Source of the DNA: Ulota crispa
Taxonomy: Eukaryota; Streptophyta; Bryopsida; Orthotrichales; Orthotrichaceae
Assembly: GCA_963920765.1 (NCBI GenBank)
Contig: OY987243.1
Span: forward strand, 29,449,060-29,513,059
DNA: 64,000 nucleotides
Reading direction: 5' to 3'
Each line of letters opens with the position of its first letter. Positions within the stretch are counted from its first letter, which is position 1. Below are positions 9,299-54,548 of this stretch, piece after piece. Both the position numbers and the translations under genes were made by a program. Under the pieces are notes generated by a model. That model saw nothing but the letters and a program-made list of their open reading frames with translations, searched no databases and had not been told where the DNA came from.

Positions 9299-11293
9299 AA
9301 CTAGAAAAAAAAAAAAATGGCCTCAACCCATTATGCCGTCCTTTAGGAGTGAAGGCAGCCAGTATCGAGGTAAGATTTTGCCGGAAACTCAGCAAAGAAG
9401 TACCGGGCATCCGTCCTAGAGGGGGGCAACTAACTTACTAATTTACCAAGGCCAAGATGTTTCCTCACCAGGGAGACCATTCATTCAAGTGGTGAAATCT
9501 AGAAATCTAGATCACATTGGAAGCCAAATAGATTCCAGACAAAGCTAGTTGAAGGAAGAAAGAGAGAGCTTGTACCTTTCCTACCATACTACCTTATCAT
9601 CAACTGACTGGTACTGTAATTTTAATTTTTCCATGGCATGCAGAATGATTACAAGCAGGGCAGGGCAGACTGCCGCACCAGTACACGACCATTCCAGTAC
9701 AAAAACTTAAAACACTTTGCTTAAGCGCTAAGCATCGTGCTTACAGGTCACAAAAAGCATGAACCCCGGTGTGTGTGGCCTGACACTCTCGGCATGGCAC
9801 TCAACAAAGGTACAGTGATAACCACAGCAACTACAGTAACAACAACTACAGTAACCACAGTTACTACCTACACCAAATAGTGCATTCTGGTTGCCATACT
9901 TTGGCAAAGTTACCTCACACCTCACCCTTAGATCAAGTGGAGCATGCAACGCTTTTTATGCTACAGTAGTTCTTGGTTCTGTGTGAATTTCAAGCTTCCT
10001 TATTCCCTGGCTTGTTGCGTCCAACCTTTGCTTACTTCCTTCATTGTTTGTAATCGTGGTAAGAATTTAGTATTAGGCAACCTAAATGCATTATTTGATG
10101 TAATTTCCACAATTTCCAGTCACATAGAAAATCAGCGGTTCGTGAGGGCAGGGGTAGCGCCACACTAGACGCACACTTGGTGACGTGGCTTGGCATTTCG
10201 AACTCGTGTTCCCCTGCAAGCAACACTGTAACATTCTGCCACCAAACTCTGTGGGAAACTGGAGATGAGGAGGTCTATATTTAACTTCGGTCCTCGACGA
10301 CCGAGACTGATAATGAGAGCGCCGCTTTTGTATTTTTGTGAGTGAGTGCCTTGTGAGTAGTGACCCCACCTCACCCCTCGAATAAACTCGTCGGAATAGA
10401 AACACCTATTGGAGATATTCCGTGATTCACATAGAAAATCCTGAGATTTTATTCAACAAAAAATTATTTGCTGGTTTATTGGTTTATTGGATTGTTATAT
10501 GGTTATTTCGGAGAATGGAGGCGATGATGCGTGCGAGGAGTCCTTGAGTTGAGAGCTTGCTTCCGAATTGTCATACTTGTAGGCTTTGCACAAACCCTGG
10601 TTGTAGTTTTGTATCAATCTTGCTCGGGTCTCCAAGAGAATTCATTTAATTACGTTGCAAGGAGTAAGCTAGCTTGTAGATACTAAGTTCTAGTTGCTTG
10701 TGAGGTGACCTGTATATTCACCTTGAATTGTCGATTCCTGCAACTTTCCGGACAAGTGATCCCCTGTAGTTGTCGTTGTTGATGTTGCTCTTTTCGATCA
10801 AGGGGTTGTGTATAAACTGAAGCTGGCTGGTTGAATTTAGGCGGCTGAGCGCATCGTCGATCGGGTTAGAAGTTTTGAAACTGAAGGAGCAAGTGAGTGA
10901 CGGCTGGCGATCGACGTACTACACGATGCCTGGTGTGTGCAGGAATGCATTTATTTGAATTCTGGCTGAGTTATCAGGATTGGGACACTTCTAGTTTGTG
11001 GATTTGAATGTTGAGTGAACTGGTTTTGTAATTTGTCTGGTAGCTAGTTGGGTTATTAGGTGGAAGCTTGCAATACATTTTTTTGGGTAGTTTGTTGAAT
11101 TTAAACTGGTTTATTATCAGATTTGCTAGTTTGGTACTGATGGAACAGAAACTGGTAACAATGGTAACTACGTGGTTTTGGTTGTATGGGTTGTTTGTTG
11201 GAGCTTGACGGTGGTGACTGGTGGTGGTTTGGGTACGTGACAGGGTTGAATGTGAATCTGTCGAGTCTATCTGATCAGGCAAAAGATGTATGG
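9299..11293 (+). other. upstream region and probable 5'UTR/intron of the F-box gene
   Basis: No credible coding region seen. Base composition rises from about 9330 onward. A stretch at about 9809-9870 is a degenerate repeat of ACAGTAAC/ACTACAGTAAC. The segment 10960-11243 is T- and G-rich with stop codons and an acceptor-like end, so it is probably an intron in the leader. Confidence 0.4.
10274..10285 (+). promoter_or_regulatory. possible TATA box upstream of the F-box gene
   Basis: The TATA-like string tctatatttaac sits at the start of the GC-richer island leading into the F-box gene, about 1 kb ahead of the proposed ATG. That distance would need a long leader or a 5'UTR intron. Possible donors are at 10892 and acceptors at 10941 or 11243. 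Transcript data would decide. Confidence 0.25.
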
Positions 11294-12451
11294 ATGGACC
11301 CATCGCTCTGGGGGACGCTACCAGAGCCACTGATAGAGCTCATTCTAGCGCGCATGCCATTACCAGAGCTGCTACCAATGCGAGCCGTCTGCAAGAAGTG
11401 GAACACGCTCCTACACACAGACCGGTTCCTAACAAAGCAGCGCGCTCTCACAATGCAGTGCCCGGCATACGTTCTCACTCTGAACGAGCCCGCTACTTCG
11501 GCCTTCAGTTTCTTCCAGCAAGCAGGCCCTGAGCTCTACTACCTCCGCAACAGCACCCTCTACTGTCCAGTCGCCAAGAACTGGTTCAACATGTCACTCA
11601 ACTTCTTGCCCATCCACGACTACTACATCACATCAGTCGGAGGCGGATTGCTCTGCTTTGTGGGATACAAGGCCAAGGTCATCCATCGTGAGGTCGTGAT
11701 AGGCATCTCCAACCCGGCAACACGATCGTGGCGAGTTCTCCCCCAATGGGGAAACGCTAAAGCCTACACCAACTTACCAGTGTTCGTGGCTATGGTGGTG
11801 GACAACTTCACTAATTCCTACCGAGTTCTACTAATCGACCACGACAGGAGCGCCACGTGGACATACCAGTCGGCAAGTAAGGAATGGACAGAGGCAGACT
11901 CCGTTCCTCCTCGTCATACTTTTCCATATTACGATCGGTGTCCGAGTGCAGCCGTGGTGTCGAAATCGTCGGTTCTAGTGTGCGCCACTGAGTGTAAGAC
12001 GGGGATATCGACGTTCGACATGGACACTGGAATCTGGAACTCTTACCACGTCTTTCTCCCCGGGATGCACAGTAACGTGCATCTGGTGCAGCACCACGGG
12101 CGCATTTTCATGATCAGTCGCGTCATGAAGCAGAAGTATGAAGGCTCTGATCGCGTTCAAATCTCCGAGCTCGATCCCAATGGGCTCCGTATCACCACTG
12201 CTCTTGCGGATGTTCCGCTTGGTCCTTCTAAGCAGTTTTTGGACCATTTCAAGGTGTGTGGGTATAGTCGTCATGATGATGACGACTCTGAGGGGTTGTG
12301 TTTTATCTCGGTTACTACTGGTGAGCGCTGGCTGTATGATCTCGACGCTCGCTTCTGGCACATTCTGCCTAGTAGCCCCAGATGTAAAACTAAAAGCATG
12401 GCTGCTTATGGTGGGTTCAGCGTCCACTTGAGAGTGGACATCCAACCGTAA
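11294..12451 (+). CDS. F-box protein, At5g15710/At1g27340 (LCR)-like
   Basis: Predicted substrate-receptor subunit of an SCF (SKP1-cullin-F-box) ubiquitin ligase, 385 residues from this start. The F-box is at about residues 5-48 (LWGTLPEPLIELILARMPL, then AVCKKWNTLL), followed by a long C-terminal region of kelch/F-box-associated type with spaced Trp and Gly, e.g. ISNPATRSWRVLPQ. Intronless over the domains. I chose the ATG at 11294 because MDPSLWG lies just ahead of the F-box and the sequence just upstream is TG-rich and intron-like, with a possible acceptor (gtgacag) at 11237-11243. The same frame stays open back to an ATG at 11186, adding 36 residues (including SDQAKDVW), so an N-terminal extension or an upstream exon is possible. 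Its substrate cannot be read from sequence. Assignment to this F-box group is from remembered family motifs. Confidence 0.85.
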   Translation: MDPSLWGTLPEPLIELILARMPLPELLPMRAVCKKWNTLLHTDRFLTKQRALTMQCPAYVLTLNEPATSAFSFFQQAGPELYYLRNSTLYCPVAKNWFNMSLNFLPIHDYYITSVGGGLLCFVGYKAKVIHREVVIGISNPATRSWRVLPQWGNAKAYTNLPVFVAMVVDNFTNSYRVLLIDHDRSATWTYQSASKEWTEADSVPPRHTFPYYDRCPSAAVVSKSSVLVCATECKTGISTFDMDTGIWNSYHVFLPGMHSNVHLVQHHGRIFMISRVMKQKYEGSDRVQISELDPNGLRITTALADVPLGPSKQFLDHFKVCGYSRHDDDDSEGLCFISVTTGERWLYDLDARFWHILPSSPRCKTKSMAAYGGFSVHLRVDIQP

Positions 12452-23258: not shown

Positions 23259-26200
23259 CTACTCCGAAGGCTGACCACCAAATCCGAAACGGCAATTGAT
23301 CAGAGACCTTAAAACAGGCACAATTCCTATGAGAACCATCTGCAGCTGCTCCGAGCTGCTCGCCCTGATGGACACTTGGCCGGAGCCTCGGTTGTTGAGG
23401 TTGGCCCTGCCCACCATCATCGTCTTCCCCACCATGAACTGCGACTGCAGGTTGCCACCGATGGCGAGGTCCCCGTGCCAGTCCATCACTGACAGCCCCA
23501 GCGTCGACAGCGTGCGGCTCAGAGGATACTCCTTCCCTCGCAGCGTTGCCTCCAGGCTTCCTCCAAAGGCCTTGTCTCCCTTCCCTGTCAACACCCCTCC
23601 ATTCACCACCATCTTTATCCTCTTCCCAATCAAAAGCCTGTCCTCCAGCTTCAATCCCGCCGCAATGGTGTCATTCAGCACCGTGCATGTCAACCCTCCA
23701 GTTGTCTTGTTCCTCTTGAAGTTGTTGAAACGCGTCTCTGCTCGCAGTGTATACGCCAGGTCCTTGCCAATGGTTTGAATGTCGAATCCTGTCAATGTCA
23801 CCTTGCCTTCTCCGTGCTTCAGCGACGCAGCAGCTTCAAAGCTCACCTGCGCTTCCTTCTTGTCCTTGGTCACTTGGGCTGAAATGGAGGCCGGGATCTT
23901 ATCCTTCAAAACGAACATTTTCTCCACGTTCAAACCTTCGTAGCCTGCATCGTGGTCCCAGCCGTGGGTCTCTAGCACGGGGCGTACCAGCCACTGGTTG
24001 GCTGTCTCCAAGTATCGGTACCTGCAATAGATATGGATGGTTAATTCAAGTTCAAAACCTGGTTTAAAATTTGCACATGACTAATGAGGAGTTTTTACAA
24101 AATGGTATGGAGTTACCTATGGGTGGGGGTGTCAGAATCAAACGAGGGAGGGAGAACCATGTCTGGCATAGGGACAGGAACAGAAGCAGCTTGTCCAGAG
24201 TCGTCGTCCGCGTCAGGACCTGCTTGCGGAAGCTCTTCCTCGGACATAGATACTGCTTGCTTCCTCATCTCTTTTCTTCTTCGAATCTGCTCCCTGTACT
24301 GCTTCTTTTGAAATAGTCTTTCTCGATCAGCAAGTTCCTCAGCATATTGATGCTTCTGTTCCGTACTGAGCTCCTCCAATTCTTCTTTAGCGAGCGGCCT
24401 GATACAACACATGGTTCATTCATGAGGAAGTGACCCTCAAACGATAAAACCAGCGTTACAAGCAACGGAATGTCAAGTCTTTCGAGGCTCTACAAGTTGT
24501 ACACTGTTGTATGGATGACCACTAATAAAGGAAGAGCGTGAAGTGCACAAAGAGGACCACAAAGATCCTCACAAATCATGCAGAAGTTTTGCAAAAAAGA
24601 TGCTTGCAAAGTAAGAAAAAATAACGCTGTACCTGAAGGGTGGAAGTTCGTCATACTCATCATCTTCCTCGTCATCCTCGTCATCATCGTCATCTGAAAC
24701 GTCCGATTCCTCTTGCAATTCATTTGGCATTTGCAATTGGGCGCGGGATTGAAGCAAAGACGAGAGTAGAAACGGCAGAGGTGGCACCCGAGGTCGCTGC
24801 TGCCCAAATGGTTTCCCTGGAGTTGCAGTTTCGAAGAGCTTCAACAAGGTGTTAGCCTCTGCCAGTATCTTCGAAGCGAAACAGAGCAGCAGCAGTTGGG
24901 ATTTCCAAATCTGCCCGTTGGGCAGAACCCTCTGCCCAGTGCGGTTGGTTCTGCAAGCGGGGTGATTCTCCACCAACGACACTGGATTCGACAGCCTCAT
25001 GTCACCCGCCGCTTGTCGTATCGTCTGTTGCACCACGTGAGACCGCTGTGCTAAAAACATGTCGTAATTCAAAGGAGCTCCATTCGGTCCATCAGGAGGC
25101 GCCGAACCAGCGTGCGTCAACACCACAATGGCGTTGAACCACACCGCAGCTCCAAACACGTCAGTGATGGTGCGCAGCAAGGGCACGTCACCGAGGTCTC
25201 GAGGCTGCATATCCAGACGGTCGAAGTACAAAACTATGTCCGGAGATGATTTCTTGATATACCTCTTCACTTGTCCCATGATGGTCTCGTTATGCCGTTG
25301 CTCTGCCGTCGAAGGAAGCAGCCCGGGAGTGTCTATCACCCTCACCTGTGCACACAAACGTTGGTACAACATAAGCCTCCGTCCAACCAGTATCAGAATC
25401 AAACCTTTAACAACAACTCGCATGGCAAGCTAACCACTAAAAGATCAACAATTCATGTCTTCAAAACGACCAACTCAATCGATCACATTATGAAAATCAT
25501 GATTCAGATGAAGCTAAATTTTATATCAGCGAGGAACATTTACATAAGTTAGTCAGAAAATCATAATAAATTGGACAAAAAGATAGTCCCCATACCACCC
25601 ACTCAAAACTGCAAACGCAAAAATGACACCAATGTGGTGTTCTTGAAACCAGCATGTGTACAAGTTAAAACCAGTTATTACCTTGATGCCGTGCACGGTG
25701 CCGACAATTTCATGGACTTTCTTCGTGGACGGATTAAAAGCACTTGTCAGAGACTTGCGCTCATCAAAGATTGAGTTGATGGTCGCACTCTTCCCAACGC
25801 CCGTCTTCCCCAAAACCAATATTGTACATGCAAAGTCGAGCTCCTCCTCTTGGTGTGTCGCCTCCGCTTCCGTTGCCAGAGCATTGGCGCGATCAAAACT
25901 GAAAGCTGCCGTGCGGTTCTGAGTGCTGCCACCCCTCAATGACTCTGCTAATCCAAGGCGGTACAATACTTGAGCTACAACCTGGTTCTGTGGAGATTGT
26001 CCCAAACGGTGAGCCAGCCTCAAGAACTTCACCCTAATGTTTTGAAGCTTATCGCGCGTTTCATTGCTTTCATTGTTAGTGCTCTCCTCAGTAGTAGATG
26101 TGAGCTCGGTTGGCGAGCTAGCAGTGGGCTGTTGCGTAATCCTACCAGCCGTATCCGTTGCTACAACAGCTTTTTTAGATGGTCGTTTGGGCAATGAGGG

Positions 26201-28437
26201 CAATGATGGCCCAGCTGCACCCATAGATGGCTTGCTTGCATTCTCATTTCCAGATCCTACAACCAAAAAGTAAAGATCAGTGACTATCTCATCAAGTGCA
26301 ACAATTCTGCATAAATCCGAAAAGTCAAATGAAGCAAAACACCAAAAGCAAACATGGCATCAGATAGCTCGAGTTTTTCCAAATACGTATATGATACGCA
26401 ACTTTGTAGGTTAAAATAGGATTAGGAACTACAGTTTTTGTTCATAACTGATAAGTTACAACTTACCAGATCTAGCTGCTTGTTCTAGCTGCGCTTTGGC
26501 ACGAATAGCAGCGCCATCGTATTCGTCTTCATCTTCTTCATCATTTTCATGATACTCATCCTCGGCATCGACATCCGAGTCACCTTCCTCACCTGAGTAG
26601 TCCACCCTTCCAGATTCCGGTGAGCTTGCTTGTATTTGTTCAGTCTGGTCCACATCACCACTGTCTGACCTGCCCAAGGTAGGAATTCCTGAGCTAGCAA
26701 GCACTCTCAAGTCTTCTGCAACATCTTTGGGTAACTCTTTCTTAACAACAACAAGGGAGTTTAATTCATCTTTTTCACCTCCTTCTGAATTATGTTCCCT
26801 AGTCACCCCAAGAATCCTCTCTTCCTCCTGCACATCATCACCCTCCTGTGAATCGTCGTAGATTTTGTACTTCGATCCTGTCGCAGGAGAATTGACAATA
26901 AATTCCTCCTCATCATCGTTGAACGCTGAAGTAGACTCTTGAACTGTACTCTCTAACGCAGAGGCTGGATCTCTCAATGAAACCCCAGCCTCTAGCTCCT
27001 CCAGTCTTCCACCAAAGACAGTGTTCTCCAGTTCCTCCGAAGCCGAGTCCGTGCCTCCATCGTCTGCCTCCTCAAATTCATCCTCTACGTCTGCATCATC
27101 CTCTTCTGCAAACCATCCACAACGCAATCCCTCATCAGCCAATCACATGAAGCCCTTAGCTTCTTAAACGCCCAAGGCAAATGGTTATAAAAAAGGGAAA
27201 ATTTCATGGATACCCCTGAAGTTTGCAATATTTGCATAGATACCCTTGCTTTTTCAGAAATCACACAAATACCCTTAGACCATAGTTTTTAGGCATTTCC
27301 TTGTTGTGTTTATACTTTCTTCATGACCAATATTGAAAAAGGAATGTAATGAAACAAAACAAAAAAGCAACATGCGCACAAAAAGTGGCATGCACAACAA
27401 CGCCTAAATTTTTTGGTCCAAGGATATTTGTGTAATTTCTGAAAAAGCAGGGGTATCTATGTAAATATTGCAAACTTCAGGGGTATCCATGAAATTTTCC
27501 CTATAAAAAATCATGAAATCCAGTTTGGGCCTTTTGATCCATCAGGGGTTGATCTCAAATACCGAGAACAATCTATTATATTAATTGCAAAGTGTCACGA
27601 CCCTCTGTCACAGAATCAGTCACGTTTTCATCTAATTATTTCATCCAGTTATTTTCATCGCTCCCATGTCTTTACTTAGTGACTGCAACCCTAATTGCAC
27701 TTGAACATAATCTTGATAGTAGCAATGGATAAGGAGTTACTATTTGTGTTGATCAAATGATTTGTGTTGAAATCAGATAGTTATAATTTGTATGCATCAA
27801 GTTTTGCTTAAATATAATCATCATTTTCATCATATTTGTGTTACCGTTGCATTGCAACGGGCTCCTTTCTAGTATCCATGTAAGTATCGTCTTTACCATG
27901 ATCTTCATCGCTCCTCACAAGCATTCTCCCTTGCACGAATGATGCTCCAGTATAGTCTAACTCATCTTCCGTATTGCTGGCGTTGGAGGAATACTCCGAC
28001 CTGTTACCACCAGTTTCCTCCTCGTTCTCATCATCCTCATCATATTCATCATACGCGTTTCCTTCTCGTTCCCTTCCCGGTAAACCCTCGACATCGCCAG
28101 CTTCATAATGGGACCGAGCATCAACAGAACCTACAGGACTCGAAGGTTCAAAGCTCGTGATTGAAGAAGCCGCCATCCTTTCCAAAGCACTGTCAAAGCT
28201 GTCCGCACTGCCAACACTTTCTGCATCATCTCGCTCATCCTTCTCACTCGGTGTCCGCACCCTAATTGGTGTGAGCCCTGTCATATGTGGCTCTGTCATA
28301 TGTGGCTCTTCTAGCCTGGAGCTTTTCGCCGCTCCCGGAACTTCAACCTCCGGGGAGCTGCTACTCGCCACCTCAGCCTTCACATCACGGTTCCTGCCCA
28401 GGCTACTGAACTTGCGAAGGGCGTCCATCTTTATCAA
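23259..28437 (-). CDS. TOC159: TOC159-family chloroplast import receptor GTPase, six exons
   Basis: Outer-envelope receptor of the TOC translocon that binds preprotein transit peptides. Exons on the minus strand: 28437-27897, 27105-26467, 26256-25682, 25345-24633, 24398-24117 and 24021-23259. All introns are GT-AG (e.g. donors GTAAAG, GTAAGT; acceptors TTTGCAG, TTGCAG) and every junction keeps frame, giving 1170 residues. Domains: an acidic A-domain over about residues 1-460 (DEEDEDEYDG, EYDEDDENEEE); an AIG1/septin-like G-domain with P-loop GKTGVGKS at 543-550, DTPG at 590-593 and LTHAGSAPPDG; an acidic patch; then an M-domain from FDSDTPTHRYRYLE through HGWDHDAGYEG and LGLSVMDWHGDLAIGG to the end. 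The start could be M1 or M4 (MDALRKF at 28428). TOC159, TOC132 and TOC120 share this layout, so the symbol is family-level. No break seen. Confidence 0.93.
27194..27502. mobile_element. MITE in intron 1 of the TOC159-family gene
   Basis: About 309 bp with near-perfect terminal inverted repeats of about 90-100 bp (agggaaaatttcatggatac at the left end, its complement at the right). Directly flanked by ataaaaa(a) at 27187-27194 and 27503-27510, a 7-8 bp target duplication depending on how one shared A is counted. Long TIRs and this duplication size suggest a Mutator- or hAT-type non-autonomous element. It sits wholly inside the 791-bp first intron, clear of both splice sites. Confidence 0.8.
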
Positions 28438-34257: not shown

Positions 34258-35189
34258 TTAATCCCTAAAGGTCCAATTGTCTCCCGGGGTCAGTTGAGAT
34301 TTCCATGCACCTATAGCTAATTTAGTTTCTGTGATGTTTTTATACTTTTATTGAAGGTGGGGAATTCCAAGACCTACGCAGGAATCAAATTTTTTGTCAT
34401 TCTGACATTTGACAAAGAAGTTATGCAAGAATTTTTGCTGCCCGGGGGAGGGAGGGCAATCCGGGCAGCCCAAAAACTTCTTAAAAATTTGTGTTTTCTA
34501 AAATAAAAATCTGAAATTGGTTCTATAGATTTTTTCATACATGAGAAGCTTTGAATCATTCAATTTCAATTAATGACATGAAAGTTATAAGGATTTTTTG
34601 TTTGCGGGTAGTTATGGATTCTCTACTCTAAAATAAACTTTGAAGTCCTTTATTTTCCACAATTTTCAATATTTTGGAAAAAAAAACTAAACCTATGGAA
34701 ATAGATTGTTTATCACAACATTATAACCATTGGGATTTTCATTTTTCAATTTAATAATTAAATTCTTAACAATGTACTGATTTGACTCATTCTATACTTC
34801 TTTTTACTTACTGTTTTCCCCATGTGATGTATAGTTCTAATTGATTTGAAAATTCTCCCACACATACCTAACTTGGTTTGCTACATGGAAAAAATAAACC
34901 TCAACTTTGTGTAGAGTATTTTTTTTCATATAAGTGTGGACAAAGGCTTCTAATTTTTTTTGGACAACACAAAAAAAAAACTTTTTTTTCACTTTAGATG
35001 TAAATATTTCCCTCCTCTCCACCTAGAATGACCTAATTTTTTCCCACCATTACCTCTTCTAGTCTAAGGCAAGATCTTACAATTGGATTTGCAAAACAAA
35101 CTTTATTTCCTACTTTTCTACTCATTCCCCCAAAGTGGCCGTTAATAGTGACTTTCACTGGAGAAAACTGCTTGGGCCTTTAGGGTTAA
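34258..35189. mobile_element. TTAA element, family E, with empty site at 41738
   Basis: 932 bp. Left ttaatccctaaaggtcc, right cttgggcctttagggttaa. The related repeat reads cacaatggtttaaggcc at 41729-41745 with one TTAA where this element sits, which directly shows the TTAA duplication. Confidence 0.85.
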
Positions 35190-35281
35190 GGCTTTTTTTT
35201 TGTCTTTTTCTCTTGTTTTTCATTGAGAAAACCTATACTTGTTAGGGACATTACTTCTAGAACCTTTTAGCTCCTTTTGCT

Positions 35282-36209
35282 TTAACCCCTAAAGGCCCAA
35301 GCTCTTTTTTTGTGAAAGTCATTGAAAACTGCCACTTTTGGGGGAATGAGTAGAAAATTAGAAAAATAATTAAAAAAGAATCCAACCCTAGGATCTTGCT
35401 CTAGACTACAAGAGGTACTTAAGGGAAAACTATCAGCTCATTCTAGATGTAGAGAAGTGAGATAGTGACATTTGAAGTGAAAAAAAAGTTTTTTCCTTGC
35501 TGCTCAAAAAAATTAGAAGCCTTTGACCTCTTGTATATCAAAAAAATTACTCCAAGCAAAGTTGAGTTTTATTTTTTCCATGTAGAAGACCAAGTCAGGT
35601 AAGTGTGGGAGAATTTTCAAAAGAAATGGAGTTGTGAATCATATTTGTAAAATCTTGCAATGTTGTAAGGCCATGGAATTTGCAAGCAAAATTGGAAGAT
35701 TTATGTAAAATTCAAAAATGTGAATTACTTTGATCTAAATGGTGAAAATCAATGAATCTCAATCTACTACAACTTGGAAAAAAATAAAAAAGTCAAAACA
35801 AAATAAAATCACCACATTTTACAAGGGGCAAAAGGAATGGAGGTTTGGGAGTCCCATACCTATCTGCAAACCAAAACTTCTCACTCATCAATCAAAATTG
35901 AATGGTTCAAAATTTCCCACATATATGAAAATATAAAGAACCAACTTCAACTTTTTATTTTAAAAAATAGCAATACTTAAAGAATTTTTTTGGCTGCCTA
36001 GGTTGCTTGCCCTCCTCCGTTTTTGAGAAATTCATGCATAACTTCTTCAATAAATGTCAAAATGAAGAAAGAATTAGATGTGCACGTACCTCTTTGAATT
36101 CCCCACCATCATCAAAAGTTTGAAAAAATTTATAAAATTGGTTTAGCCATAAGTACATGCCCAAGGTCCATTTGTCCCCCAAAAGGACAGTTGGGTCTTT
36201 AGAGGTTAA
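35282..36209. mobile_element. TTAA element, family E, inside the left TIR of the HD2 element
   Basis: 928 bp including TTAA at each end. Left taacccctaaaggcccaagc, right gggtctttagaggttaa. The unbroken right TIR at 37969-37972 has one TTAA at the matching place, so this insertion came after the HD2 element. It is in opposite orientation to the copy at 34258-35189. Confidence 0.85.
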
Positions 36210-36986
36210 TCTTTTACTTTGACTTTAAAGTCTCTTTTACTTAGGTTTCTTTTACTTTAAACTTTATTTTCATTAAGAGATACTTGTTCTAGTTTTGGTG
36301 AGCAGAGTTTTATTTTTATTTTTGCGCGGGTAGAGCGACCGGCACCCCAAAATGCAAACAGATAAGGAAAATTTGGCTAAACATGGAAATAATGAATGAT
36401 AAGCAAAAGTTCATTCAAACAACTACGTACTAATATAAGCTACTTTCATCCAAAAGCTGGCAAGCTAGGTTCTTGCTCCAAGAAGGATTTGGCTATTTCA
36501 CCCAATTTTTCACCCAAAGTGCTTAGTGTATTGGTAGCCAGTGGCCTTTTGAGGTAAGGTTTTGATGAAAATTTGCTAAGAAATTAAACGTTGTTGGTGA
36601 CAATGTTTTTTTTTGGCAATTTGGTGCTCAATTGCACCCAAAAAAGTTTTGACTTAAAAAATGTGCCAAAAATCTTGGATGAAATTGCCAAAAAAGCTTT
36701 AAAAAAAAAAAAATCTTGAAGAAAATGGCCAAATTATGGATGAAAACCAAATTATAGACATATAATATGTGCTAATGTGATATTTTCTACCCATTACGTG
36801 GATGAATGTTTAAATTTGGAGCACCACTAGAACATTTTAAATGACCACTTTGACACTTCTTAAAAAATGAAAAAAAACACCCTAGTTGGTGAGGCATCTC
36901 TTGGCTTTTTTCTCAAAGGATTTCACTCTCTACTCCAGATCTTTTCTTCCCAGCCTTTAATTCTGGAGTCTTCAGTTCTTCTTCAT

Positions 36987-37802
36987 CTAATTCGTCCGAC
37001 CCATCCTATCATCTTCCTTGTTGTCTTCATCTTCGTCCTTGTCCTCGTCCATGTCCTTCTCGGAATCGTCGCCCGCATCAGATTTGTCATCAGATTCGGA
37101 GGCTAAATCACTCAAAAACGGATGTCCCATACCCTCATCATCATCTGTTTCACCTTCCTTGTCAGAATCCTCCTCTTCAACTTCTTGCTTCTTTAAATTC
37201 GTCTTCTCCGCGGCTTTAGTAATGGCATTTGCAATAGTATGAGCAGCCTTTTCTATTACCTTTGCTAAAGACTTTGCACCTTTAGAGGGTTTTCCTGCTA
37301 CGGCCCCGTTAGTTACAATCGAAACTGCATCTGGGACAGGTGCATCTTTCTCTTCTTCTTCCTCCTCTTTGTCGTCCTCGTTCTCTTCGTCGTCCTCGTT
37401 CTCTTCGTCCTTTTCGAACTCGTACTCTTCATCCTCTTCGAACTCGTACTCTTCATCCTCTTCGAACTCGTACTCTTCGTCATACTCATCATTATCTTCG
37501 GGAGCCTCTGTTCGGTATCCACTAATGTAAATACTAGAGGATTTGCTATTGTGAGAAATCGTGAAGTCTCTGTCAAAAACAAGATCAAGTTGCATCTGGT
37601 CGCACTTGTCCTCTGACAGCGTTCCCAGGACGATCTCCTCCTTAGAGTCCACGCTCACCTTCAAAACCACCCGTTTCGGTCCTTCGCTATTCTCCGCCTT
37701 ACTCTCTCCAAGAGCAACTTGGGTGACATGAAGGTACATTCCGTAGCCAGGAGAACACGTGGTTGGGTTGCCAGCGGACACTTCGACTCCAAAAAACTCC
37801 AT
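36987..37802 (-). CDS. HDT: HD2-type (HDT) nucleoplasmin-like protein, intronless
   Basis: Plant-specific HD2 proteins are nucleolar nucleoplasmin-fold chromatin factors linked to histone deacetylation and ribosomal gene control. This frame gives 271 residues. An N-terminal nucleoplasmin-like domain spans 1-98, starting MEFFGVEV, with H25 in GMYLHVTQ and D73 in LDLVFDRDF at the places of the conserved His and Asp. A long acidic tract follows (102-152), including three near-copies of EYEFEEDE. Then come a Lys/Ala-rich segment (170-205) and an acidic tail. I chose the ATG at 37802 because MEFFGVEV matches the family start; an in-frame ATG nine codons upstream is less likely. Family genes normally have several introns, and many have a C-terminal zinc finger; both are absent here. 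The tail ends early through a likely frameshift. The gene lies inside a TIR element, so it may be a captured copy. Confidence 0.8.
   Translation of the reverse strand: MEFFGVEVSAGNPTTCSPGYGMYLHVTQVALGESKAENSEGPKRVVLKVSVDSKEEIVLGTLSEDKCDQMQLDLVFDRDFTISHNSKSSSIYISGYRTEAPEDNDEYDEEYEFEEDEEYEFEEDEEYEFEKDEENEDDEENEDDKEEEEEEKDAPVPDAVSIVTNGAVAGKPSKGAKSLAKVIEKAAHTIANAITKAAEKTNLKKQEVEEEDSDKEGETDDDEGMGHPFLSDLASESDDKSDAGDDSEKDMDEDKDEDEDNKEDDRMGRTN
37413..37484. repeat. three 24-bp units in the HD2 acidic tract
   Basis: Three in-frame 24-bp units (plus strand begins ttcgaactcgtactcttc) encode repeated EYEFEEDE. The third unit has diverged at its end. A multiple of three preserves the reading frame. Confidence 0.85.
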
Positions 37803-37898
37803 TATGGTGAATGCTTGCAAATAAGACAAAGTTGCGCGAATGCTATAGAGAAGCTACAAGCGGAATATCAAGACTAAAGAACTCTTTAGTCTCAACTT

Positions 37899-37909
37899 CT
37901 ATATATACT
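37899..37909 (-). promoter_or_regulatory. TATA box of the HD2-type gene
   Basis: On the minus strand this reads gagtatatatag, about 97 bp upstream of the HD2 ATG and just inside the right TIR region. If used, the core promoter would travel with the element. Confidence 0.5.
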
Positions 37910-38533
37910 CTAATTTAAAGTAAAAAAAAGTTTAAAATAAAAAAAGATTTTAAAGTCAAAGTAAAAGATTAAAGTAAAAGGAACTAAAAGGTTCTAGAAG
38001 TAATGTCTCTAGCAATACTTTTTTATTTTCTCAATCAAGAGAGCTCATGCTTGCATTTTTTGGAATTCAACTAGATGCTTAAAACTTTTTGGTCTCTCAT
38101 TTGAAAACTTGAGTTTTGCATGAAAAGATTGCAATTTCCTCTTGTGAAAATGCTTCAAAAAAATTATATTATTCTTGAGGTTTGAAACCATCTTATCTAG
38201 AGACATTAATTTCTCATGTGAAAAATGATGATTTTCTCAAAATGTATACATATATATTATCTCATATGAGAAAACCAAAAAGTTTGCACACCTAACAAAA
38301 TGTGCAAAATAGCAAGTATGGTTCATTTATGAGAAAAAAACCAGAAGCATGAGCTCTCTTGAGTGATATATATGAAAAACTGACAAAAAAGAACCTTAAA
38401 TTGATCGCAAAAAGTCAAGTTTTATCCATGGCAAATGAAGGAGAGAAAATCAAATTTAACCGCTAAATAAAATGAGCTTTTGAAACCCCCGCAATACTTC
38501 TCCCTTTCGTTTTGTGACAGAAAACAAATTGTA

Positions 38534-40975: not shown

Positions 40976-42592
40976 GCACCTTCTTTTCTAACCCCTTCCC
41001 AAAAAAGAGATGCCTTGAGCCTAAAAGCGGATTCCAAAGATAAAGCGCACCTTCTTTATGGAAAGGCTACCAAAGAGGTGTTTTACATTGCATAAGGTCC
41101 CCTTCCAAGGGCGTTTTTGTAAGATTTCAATTGAGTAGGTTTTTTTGCAAAAAAGAATCCCTCTAGAAATCAAGAGCTTTGTGACAAGCAAGTTCTACAA
41201 AATTAAAAGGCAATTATTCCTTATGAAAAGATAATCATGTTTGAGTAAGTTTCATACTTGACACTATTATTGCATGCAAATGGAGTGGCTTTTGTAAACT
41301 TAAGCAGCTCTTGCTCCTTATTACAAAACACAATAATTTATAGCAGTGCAAAAAAATTTGGGTTTAATATAAACATTGTTTTCAAGAATTTGGATTGAAA
41401 GCCAAAATATGAGCTAAGTAGATGTGCCTTGTTGAGGACTTCATGCATATATATACATACATTATTTTTAGATACCACACCTTCTTGCACTGCTACAAAA
41501 GTTATACAGCACATTTTTGTTCACAATTCACCTTATGCTCAACAAGTATAATCCACAGTTTCACATTGCGCATGTTTGCATTGATCATTGTTTTGTTGTT
41601 GACTAATTTACTAAATTGCAATGTTTAGAGAAGAGCTTTGCTTGATAGGGCGTGCACACCTAGGTACTTTTGCAAGTTAACTTTTTTTCCCTTTTGGGTT
41701 TTTAGTGATAAAAACAAAATTTATTTTTCACAATGGTTTAAGGCCTTTTTTTTGTCTTTTCTCTTGTTTTCCTCTTGAGAAAGTCCATACTTTTTATTTT
41801 CTCATGCACACAAGAGAACCCATGCTTGCACTCTTTTGCATCCGACTAGGTGCATAAAAGTTTTTGGTTTCTCATTTGAAAACTTGAGTTTTGCATGAAA
41901 GGTTGCAGTTTCCTTTTGTGAAAACACTAGAAGAGAAAATACCCTAAACAATTAATTTATAATGACTGCAATTGTTCTAAACAACTATATGACTTCTTAA
42001 ATACAATTATTTAGGACATATGTAGTTATTCGAGACCAATATTTATTGCACATTTTCTTCTAGTGAAATGCTCCATCAAAAACTATGTTATGATTGACGT
42101 TTGAAATTGTCTTTGGTTAGACAAAGTTTTCTTGAAGAATTTCTCATGTGAAAATAAGTTGTTTTCTCAAAAAAAGGCAATATAAAATAACATACATATA
42201 TATTATATATAATAATAGACATATTGTATATATTGTTATTATTATGATGATAATTATGGTGATGATTGTTATTATTTATTCTCATGAGAAAATTAAACAG
42301 TATGCGCACTAACAAAGTGTGCAAAAGAGCAAGCATGGGGTCTCTTACGTGAGAAAACAAGAAACATGAGCTGTCTTGAATGATAAACTTTTAAAAGACA
42401 ACAAGATTCTTAAATTGACCACGAGAAATCCAGTTTTCTCCGTAGCAAATGAAGGAGAGAATCAAGTTTAGTTGTTGAATATAATGAGCGTTGAAACCCC
42501 CTAATATTTCTCACTTTTGTTTTGTGGTGGAAAAAAGGTTGCAAGTAAAGCAAAAGCTTTTCTTGAGTTCAGGCTTCATAGAGAGCGGGACA
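40976..42592. repeat. second copy of the ~1.4-kb repeat, holding empty sites
   Basis: Order and sequence match the pieces of 32683-39000, but the TTAA elements, the HD2 element and the 38534 MITE are absent. It carries its own 141-bp CACTA-like insertion at 41925-42065. Part of the same repeat (about 51640-51850) also recurs upstream of the FatB gene. Confidence 0.75.
41925..42065. mobile_element. small CACTA-like MITE
   Basis: 141 bp, ends CACTAGAAGA..TCTTCTAGTG, flanked by AAA on both sides. The other copy of the host repeat has the uninterrupted site gtgaaaatgctt near 38143. A 3-bp duplication with CACTA ends fits the CACTA superfamily. Confidence 0.75.
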
Positions 42593-52592: not shown

Positions 52593-52873
52593 GAGATGCT
52601 CACCAGCAGTTTATCAACCAAGCGTCACCCATTTCGAGCTTTTATATGCCAGGTATAATTCATTGCAAAAGCTTGCAATTGACTTGAAAACCTGCTCTAG
52701 CGAGACTGTCGTAGCGAAGTGTTAACAGTCCTGACCTAGCTGCTGTATAATTCAGACTCAAGGGAGTATTCTGGCCCAACCAATTGCTCTTTGACAGAGT
52801 CCACTTGAGAATAGAAACTTGAGTGAGGTTGCACAGGATTGGTTTAAGTGGATTTGGTGGAGATATCGTCGCC

Positions 52874-54548
52874 ATGGATGCTATGGGGTTCATGTCCACG
52901 TCCGTCTCGGCGAAGTCAGTTTTCGCGGCGACCTCGGATCTGGACCTCGCTTCCTCGTGTTCCCCGTTCGTGAAATCTTCAAGGTTGTCGATTCGTAGCC
53001 TGAAATGCAAGAGTCGACGCGAGCCTGGACCGGTGCAGGCAGTGCTGATGGAGCGTGAGTTTTCAGCATCTGTGCAAGAGGCGCTGCTGACTCATCATCA
53101 TGCGGCGACAGTGAAGCAGGCCAGCAGCGAATTCTCACCGTATGCGGAGAGATCAATGCGGCGAGAGATGATACCCTTGCACAAGCTGCGCCAAGGTGAC
53201 TTCGCATATGAGAATTCTCTCGTGTACAGACAGATCTTCGTCATCCGTTCGTACGAAGGGGGGCCGGACAAGTGCACGTCTATCCGGGAGATCTTCAGCT
53301 TGTTCCAGGAGATGGCGCTGAACCACGTGCATCTGTTGGGCATCACCGGCGATGGCTTCGGCGCCACGCGGGCCATGAACCGCGCGGGGCTCATCTGGGT
53401 GGTGACTAAGATGCAAGTGGACGTGGAGCGCTACCCCGCGTGGCCTGAGGTCATCGAAATCGACTCGTGGGTCGCGCAGGCCGGTAAGAACGGCATGCGC
53501 CGCGACTGGATCATGCGGTCGTACCGAACCGGCGAAGTGCTGGCCCGCGCCACCAGCACTTGGTGCATGATGAACGCTACCACGCGGCGATTGTCTAAGA
53601 TCCCCGACGAAGTGCGCGCCGAAATCCAACCCAATTTTCTCGACGATCACTCTGCATACAGCGACAACAAAAGCGCGGGGCCGAGAATTGTCAAACTGGA
53701 CGATGGTACTGCCGAACACCACAGTTCGCAGCTCACGTCCACTCCTGCAGATCTCGACGTGAACCAGCACGTGAACAACCTCAAGTACATCAACTGGGTC
53801 CTCGAAGTAAGTGTCGAATACCAAATTAACCGGCCAATACCCTACATTCTCTTGGGCCGGTCAAGAGTATGTTCCCAATTAAACCTATAAATGCAACTAA
53901 ACCTATAAACGCAATATTCATTAATTTGAGAAAAAATATACATTTTGGGACGTTTGGATTTTATGGTTTTAAGTTGATGATTTCTTTGAAACGAAATATC
54001 TTGGAGGAGTTATCAAAAATCTCACAATAAATCATCAAATTACTCTTATGAATGCTTAATTCATCCTTCTTTTTTTTCTCTTAAATGGTTGGTTTTTTCC
54101 CTAAATTTTTGAATTCAATTGGGCAATCCTCAAAATCGCTAGCTCATAACTAAATGCCGGTACTCCCCGTACATTGAATTCGACGTACCTCCACCACACA
54201 AACTCTCTCTCGGGATCCGAATGCTGACGTGGATCATTATTGTTGCAGAGCATACCCGCGGAGCACGTGAAAACGCACAAGCTGGCAAGCATGGTGCTGG
54301 AATACCGCAGAGAATGCCACAGCACTGACGTCGTGCAGTCTCTCACGGGCTTCAAAACCAGCGTCGGTGATTCTGAAGCAGGAAACGACGTCGACGAATC
54401 CGCCATGGATTCTTCTTCTGCTCGTCAAAGTTGCTGTCAGTTTACGCATCTCCTGCGAACTCAAGACGCAGGTCAACAAGAGATTCTCCGCGGGAAGACG
54501 ACATGGCGCTCGCGCAACGCCGACGTCTCTGCCTCTGCTCCGTGCTGA
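52874..54548 (+). CDS. FATB: acyl-ACP thioesterase, FatB type, two exons
   Basis: Plastid stromal enzyme that hydrolyses acyl-ACP and releases free fatty acids, usually palmitate for FatB, for export. Exons 52874-53806 and 54249-54548 (donor GAA/GTAAGT, acceptor TTGTTGCAG) join in phase as WVLE/SIPAEH, giving 410 residues. The first 55 or so residues are Ser-rich and basic, as expected for a transit peptide. Hotdog-domain landmarks: LFQEMALNHVHLLGITGDGF, IWVVTKMQVDVERYPAWPEV, GKNGMRRDW, RRLSKIPDEVR, then DLDVNQHVNN with N297 and H299, and EYRREC with C334, the family catalytic residues. GKNGMRRDW favours FatB over FatA. I chose the ATG at 52874 (gccATGG, strong context); an in-frame ATG at 52823 would add 17 residues. 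The final portion (HLLRTQ..GKTTWR) is complete. Angiosperm FatB genes have more introns. Confidence 0.92.

Follow-up and report, generated by a model that had tools for sequence, protein, structure and literature searches.

How did an HD2-type chromatin gene come to lie, free of introns, between two inverted repeats in the genome of the moss Ulota crispa? The window analyzed here, a stretch of 64,000 nucleotides (C2:29449060-29513059 in a 275-Mb genome, C-numbers denoting contigs; GenBank contig OY987243.1), carries the gene within one insertion at 35240-38014, and a preliminary description had taken this segment for a Pack-type terminal inverted repeat (TIR) transposon that had captured the gene. 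Our analysis points to another origin, namely a retrocopy made by a long terminal repeat (LTR) retrotransposon whose unusual ends are inverted copies of the LTR's U3 (unique 3') region, a reading to which we assign a probability of roughly 0.8.

A spliced HD2 copy within a single insertion

The boundary alignment resolved a single insertion with TG...CA termini, starting with TGTTAGGGAC and ending with GTCTCTAGCA, with ATACT flanking each side. Of the two boundaries proposed earlier (TTG..CAA with TAC, TG..CA with ATACT), the one with TG..CA and ATACT fits this alignment. The inverted arms at 35239-35285 and 37969-38015 span 47 nt and are 91% complementary; the left arm is then interrupted by an insertion resembling a miniature inverted-repeat transposable element (MITE), picks up again at 36210, and reaches ~36260, giving a total of ~100 bp. 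When joined, the flanks match a related repeat without the insertion at 41735-41900 (identity at 140 of the 161 bases aligned, leaving small gaps out). The TG...CA ends, the single ATACT duplication, and this empty relative bear out the proposal that the segment moved in as a unit.

The gene was also correctly recognized as an intronless member of the HD2 type. Its open reading frame (ORF) matches the Pfam NPL domain (E=1.1e-18), the top Protein Data Bank sequence is Arabidopsis HDT1 (7vrr, E=1e-18), and the protein has an N-terminal nucleoplasmin-like domain with a MEFFG/MEFWG-type start, its closest named relatives being those of Physcomitrium (51-71% identity), followed by Sphagnum. In a genome search with the copy, self excluded, five exon-sized pieces of one C8 gene ranked at the top, along with one weak match on C3 (33%). 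Comparison with this intron-bearing paralogue, a check advised in the preliminary description, revealed a parent split into exons and a window copy that is intron-free at eight splice junctions, comprising seven introns among eight assembled coding exons plus the junction that follows these, near 36292. The HD2 gene is a reverse-transcribed copy of the C8 gene, and it has no introns because it is a spliced retrocopy. No other HD2 retrocopy was found genome-wide.

The 5' end of the retrocopy at ~37865 falls in the parent's upstream sequence, and its other end lies within the parent's ninth coding exon, where it joins the inverted U3; no poly-A was found at this 3' end, the sequence passing into the U3. 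A C-terminal lysine-rich and zinc-finger part is present in many, but not all, HDTs; it is not present in the window copy, which stops in that ninth exon. Aligned blocks remain in frame with the parent through the first ~250 codons, and one 1-base and two 2-base gaps occur near the 3' end. With its 3' exons absent and its 3' end frameshifted, the gene cannot be called nearly complete, as had been suggested. The overall ratio of nonsynonymous to synonymous divergence (dN/dS) was 0.49, and 176 of 1000 neutral simulations (median 0.65) came out as low. The NPL part had 11 amino-acid-changing codons, where neutral simulation gave a median of 16 (P=0.019). This low count could stem from constraint on the parent itself, and selection acting on the retrocopy is not demonstrated.

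The ends are U3 sequence of an LTR family

A genome search with the right end returned 31 matches, 3 inside the window element and 28 outside it, so that other loci do carry these ends, the lack of which was to have spoken against a mobile element. Many of the matches examined start with TGTTAG...TATA and continue as an LTR with a GACA or AACA end. Some LTR copies come after a common purine-rich stretch (3' LTRs) and others before a common leader (5' LTRs), as judged partly by eye, and in two elements of ~5-6 kb the LTR occurs as a pair of direct repeats. Three of seven short ORF pieces from one such element match RVT_1, RT_RNaseH, or RT_RNaseH_2, the other four having no match, and this full-length element is flanked by a 5-bp target-site duplication (TSD), AATGT (flanks of L033 and L021). 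The source family, whose copies were degraded where read, appears Ty3/gypsy-like, a label that we assume from the types of reverse transcriptase (RT) and RNase H. Judged from these comparisons, the inverted ends of the window element are the U3 part of this LTR, one per end; as had been observed, they resemble no familiar DNA-transposon superfamily. The TATA box at 37900-37907, previously credited to the gene itself, likewise belongs to the U3. It precedes the HD2 start codon by ~100 bp in sense orientation, so that the LTR promoter may drive the copy.

The source family also has an 11-base primer-like site two bases past the LTR, which does not start with TGG and whose reverse complement fits R, the repeated LTR region that, like the transcription start, we placed from the TATA spacing. 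For 9 of the 10 LTR-end sites, the best 11-letter match in the 290 upstream bases falls at R; two of these matches are exact, one has a single difference, and six have two, all differences being transitions. The remaining site is without such an R. This complementarity predicts self-priming of the family. At L063, the R and the primer-like site both depart from the commoner form and are still exact complements, a hint of covariation for a self-primer (noted with L018).

Inward-facing U3 pairs recur in the genome

Units with inverted U3 ends recur at other loci (Table 1). The eIF4A unit contains an intact, intronless ORF of 414 amino acids with DEAD and Helicase_C domains; the loci most similar to it are three on C9 that score equally, each in five coding pieces, at 85-98% identity. 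Over 403 codons, the copy differs from one C9 relative by a dS of 0.105 and a dN of 0.013 (dN/dS 0.12), and none of 2000 neutral simulations had so few changed amino acids, a pairwise ratio that partly reflects the parent's constraint and that a closer parent absent from the assembly would weaken further. The eIF4A copy suggests that the inverted-U3 route can yield a gene retained by selection. One of the C9 loci (18473541-18475636, 18587517-18589612, and 18629553-18631648) is oppositely oriented, and the trio represents either a recent duplication or an assembly duplication.

The survey of U3 starts covered sequence patterns: every match to a single exact pattern (88 rows at 73 sites) and a second pattern list of 45 rows, which together yielded 94 sites. 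Neighboring starts within 3 kb in the first list faced inward six times and outward never, with ~0.014 inward pairs expected; the pooled sites gave ten inward pairs and no outward pair, with 0.024 inward expected. Two of these ten were rejected as clean units and stay in both the pair and the TSD counts. C8:16510817/16512868 has no TSD and a same-direction U3 4.3 kb off, so it is probably nested, and C6:3371315/3373648 has a coding-like interior and an unclear TSD. L011, which has a truncated end, was left out. The pair C6:5759738/5760320, whose ends are among the matches listed of 179, is in neither pattern list and hence outside the counts. In that pair (L032), the purine-rich internal end of the element comes before the right arm, and the middle resembles that of C5:7878261 by eye. 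Match coordinates alone gave further inward candidates (C4:16171727-~16174308, C6:3280613-3282495, and C5:12128362-12129740), together with short ones near C1:13529761, C2:6276782, and C3:13869892.

Among 12 units with both flanks compared, five had identical 5-mers (the HD2, eIF4A, C5:10589301, C2:20863391, and C5:7878261 units, the C2:20863391 reading tolerating one eroded end base) and four were one base off. In control cross-pairs of flanks from 11 units, 2 of 110 matched at four positions and 0 of 110 at five. The short palindromes, C5:10589301 included, are 224-279 bp long. In C5:10589301 the two arms have a similarity of 0.99 and their next closest relatives are LTR copies (0.92), and C6:4930959 and C8:1162913 have another U3 type in common. 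We read these patterns as repeated formation from different LTR copies, a reading that the sequences favor firmly for one palindrome only (C5:10589301).

A proposed origin by template switching

The agents would be the particle, RT, and integrase of this LTR family, the integrase being suggested by the TG...CA termini and the 5-bp TSD. Reverse transcription in the particle would join U3 DNA, a spliced and 3'-truncated HD2 complementary DNA (cDNA), and a second, opposite U3. In the presumed order of steps, plus-strand U3 would begin at the polypurine tract, its 3' end would switch template to the HD2 mRNA, and synthesis would proceed to near the mRNA 5' end. A second switch, to R/U3, would allow copying out to the second U3 terminus, and integrase would insert the linear cDNA via its two U3 ends, generating the 5-bp duplication. 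The short palindromes could arise in the same process through snap-back of the U3 strand at the U3/R border, and the pair C6:5759738-5760320 may represent a longer product of it.

Several observations weigh against this proposal. The snap-back step is tentative because the border hairpin is clear in only two of five LTR copies, being marginal in one (8 of 200 shuffles as good) and at shuffle level in two. The inner left U3 and the HD2 retrocopy meet at ~36260-36264, where the homologies overlap by a few A/G letters; the junction letters are eroded, and microhomology is unproven. The seven ORF pieces scanned from the full-length element gave no match to an integrase domain, and one side of C6:5759738-5760320 continues into element-internal sequence. 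The closest relative of the SUMO-like copy matches it without a break over positions 1-644 of 646 at 91%, so neither splicing nor an RNA step is demonstrated there. The TSD was not convincing in 3 of the 12 units (C8:1162913, C6:3371315, and C8:16510817). In addition, the arm comparison was mixed: something other than the partner arm matched best in the eIF4A and SUMO-like units, as it did for the right arm of C3:11268838 and the left arm of C2:20863391, and in the case of C8:20293853 LTRs were no nearer than other palindromes.

Alternative explanations

In a Pack-type DNA transposon, a transposase would recognize the ~100-bp TIR and the gene would have been captured, with the LTR family borrowing the sequence later. 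The inverted ends, the TSD, the empty relative, and the existence of MITE-like palindromic relatives are all in keeping with such an element. However, the supposed TIR is the U3 of an LTR that two ~5-6 kb elements carry as direct repeats, and elsewhere this TATA-bearing U3 is followed by R-U5 and the primer-like site; the ends belong to this LTR and not to a transposase-coding or MITE family, no genome-wide transposase search having been made. The TG...CA termini and 5-bp TSD are the same as in the full-length LTR element, and palindrome C5:10589301 is nearest to LTR copies after its own partner arm. Gene fragments captured from DNA by a Pack-type transposon would keep their introns, whereas the HD2 copy is spliced and the eIF4A copy intronless. 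We therefore abandon the Pack-type interpretation of the preliminary description as improbable.

Two forms of retroposition without inverted U3 caps at the outset are also conceivable. LTR-mediated retrocopies are known in plants and animals (passages of PMC5408686), and one formed in the ordinary way with direct LTRs could have had one end inverted later by local rearrangement; this is unlikely, since the inverted arrangement with its own 5-bp TSD recurs at unlinked loci and each end terminates at the U3 terminus. A processed pseudogene of the long interspersed nuclear element (LINE) type, lying near LTR fragments by chance, would likewise be spliced and intronless; however, the window copy lacks poly-A, its 3' end runs into U3, and the TSD brackets the U3s rather than the gene, which renders this explanation highly implausible. 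The preferred reading remains a retrocopy that was capped by inverted U3s when it was made.

Relation to known systems and significance

The capture of mRNA by LTR elements is known, as in Bs1 of maize and in the work of Tan et al. 2016 (both via passages of the review PMC5408686). As portrayed there, LTR-mediated retroposition joins mRNA sequence with LTR-element sequence by template switching and inserts it by integrase. The window unit likewise has a spliced cDNA flanked on both sides by LTR-element sequence, TG...CA termini, and a short integrase-type TSD, but it differs in having inverted U3 ends and in lacking both a direct LTR pair and internal element sequence. Self-priming is described in passages of PMC6317226 for the Tcn1 clade (mosses, club-mosses) and the Tf1/Sushi group, and the primer-like site of our source family, two bases past the LTR, similarly pairs near the presumed 5' end of R; in contrast, the literature searched contained no inverted-U3 derivatives of such elements. 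Pack-MULEs (Mutator-like elements) and other Pack-TIR elements (see PMC8277862) resemble the window-type units in carrying gene sequence between inverted repeats with a TSD, and differ from them in that the latter have LTR U3 ends, spliced cDNA cargo, and a 5-bp TSD. DIRS-type retrotransposons, which carry ORFs between two inverted LTRs and a tyrosine recombinase (passages of PMC5633606), are comparable as retroelements with inverted terminal repeats. The window unit differs from them in its TG...CA termini, 5-bp TSD, and host-gene cargo. To our knowledge, DIRS elements are without a TSD.

Host-gene cDNAs flanked by inverted LTR or U3 ends did not appear in the literature searched, from which subscription papers were mostly absent, and this is not proof of their absence. 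Passages on inverted or opposite LTRs in PMC5633606, PMC2151762, and PMC8786324 mention no such host-cDNA units, and passages of PMC6317226, PMC2864245, PMC8764390, PMC5408686, and PMC3212995 describe no inverted-U3-capped host cDNAs. Such units would probably be overlooked or misfiled because LTR finders seek direct repeats and TIR finders seek transposons.

The expected product of host mRNA copying by LTR retrotransposons has ordinary LTR ends, and inverted U3 caps imply that a cDNA with two U3 ends can be integrated. This would account simply for some of the MITE-like palindromes that would be annotated as DNA transposons. In the HD2 and eIF4A units, the captured gene comes to lie directly behind a TATA-bearing U3, which points to an unusual route to a ready-made promoter. 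On balance, we lean slightly toward regarding inverted-U3-capped cDNAs as a recurrent retroelement product, in which integrase would take two U3 ends and a caught host mRNA could gain a sense LTR promoter; with at least one complete conserved retrogene (eIF4A) as its yield in this genome, the process would supply new genes in addition to MITE-like palindromes.

Table 1. Features of the window element (window positions) and inverted-U3 units elsewhere in the genome (contig positions)
Feature	Position	Strand	Remarks
TSD, left	35235..35239		ATACT
Left inverted U3 end, outer part	35240..35285	+	TGTTAGGGAC...
Later MITE-like insertion within left U3, repeated family	35286..36205		TTAA at edges 35282-35285 and 36206-36209
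Left inverted U3 end, inner part	36210..36264	+	
HD2 retrocopy, 3'-most piece	36264..36302	-	Spans spliced exon junction of parent
Later 583-bp insertion within retrocopy	36303..36885		8-bp TTGGTGAG at 36295-36302 and 36886-36893
HD2 retrocopy	36886..37865	-	5' untranslated region from ~37865, spliced coding exons, frameshifts near 3' end
ORF, 271 amino acids from ATG	36987..37802	-	Nucleoplasmin-like (NPL) domain and acidic region
Right inverted end	37866..38014	-	U3, TATA, and U3/R-border stretch of LTR
TATA-like box within LTR U3	37900..37907	-	~100 bp upstream of HD2 start codon, sense orientation
TSD, right	38015..38019		ATACT
Related repeat without insertion (empty site)	41735..41900	+	
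eIF4A unit	C5:11285296-11287344		U3-TATA-R, ORF in sense, inverted U3; TSD TTGCT
SUMO-like copy	C4:15461866-15462770		SUMO by eye; with stop
910-bp unit	C5:7878261-7879170		73% self-complementary, LTR plus other sequence; TSD AATGA
Element's own LTR and leader joined to inverted LTR piece	C8:1162913-1163820		
Short palindrome	C5:10589301		97.5% self-complementary; TSD TTTGA
Further short palindromes	C2:20863391, C8:20293853, C6:4930959, C3:11268838		

Later insertions and other features of the window

The HD2 gene had been described as the only content of the segment with coding character, and the unit additionally contains two other insertions, at 35286-36205 and 36303-36885, the second of which is presumably hAT-like, a label taken from its TSD length alone. 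An inverted relative of the first adjoins the element on the left; 34500-35185 and 35286-36205 are inverted copies of one repeated MITE-like family with TTAACCCCTAAAGGCCCAA ends, a further copy of which lies inside the C6:3371315 unit. A long palindrome around 35236 was accordingly dismissed as a feature, being two inverted copies of this unrelated family, one of them within the left U3.

Rfam and tRNA scans of the window gave no matches. Elsewhere in the window, three regions resemble known proteins by eye: 24569-28437 (-), with acidic-rich ORFs followed by a GTP-binding-like domain, is similar to a TOC159-type chloroplast import receptor; 52823-53890 (+) holds a 355-amino-acid ORF resembling an acyl-ACP thioesterase; and 11186-12451 (+) holds a 421-amino-acid ORF resembling an F-box/kelch-type protein.

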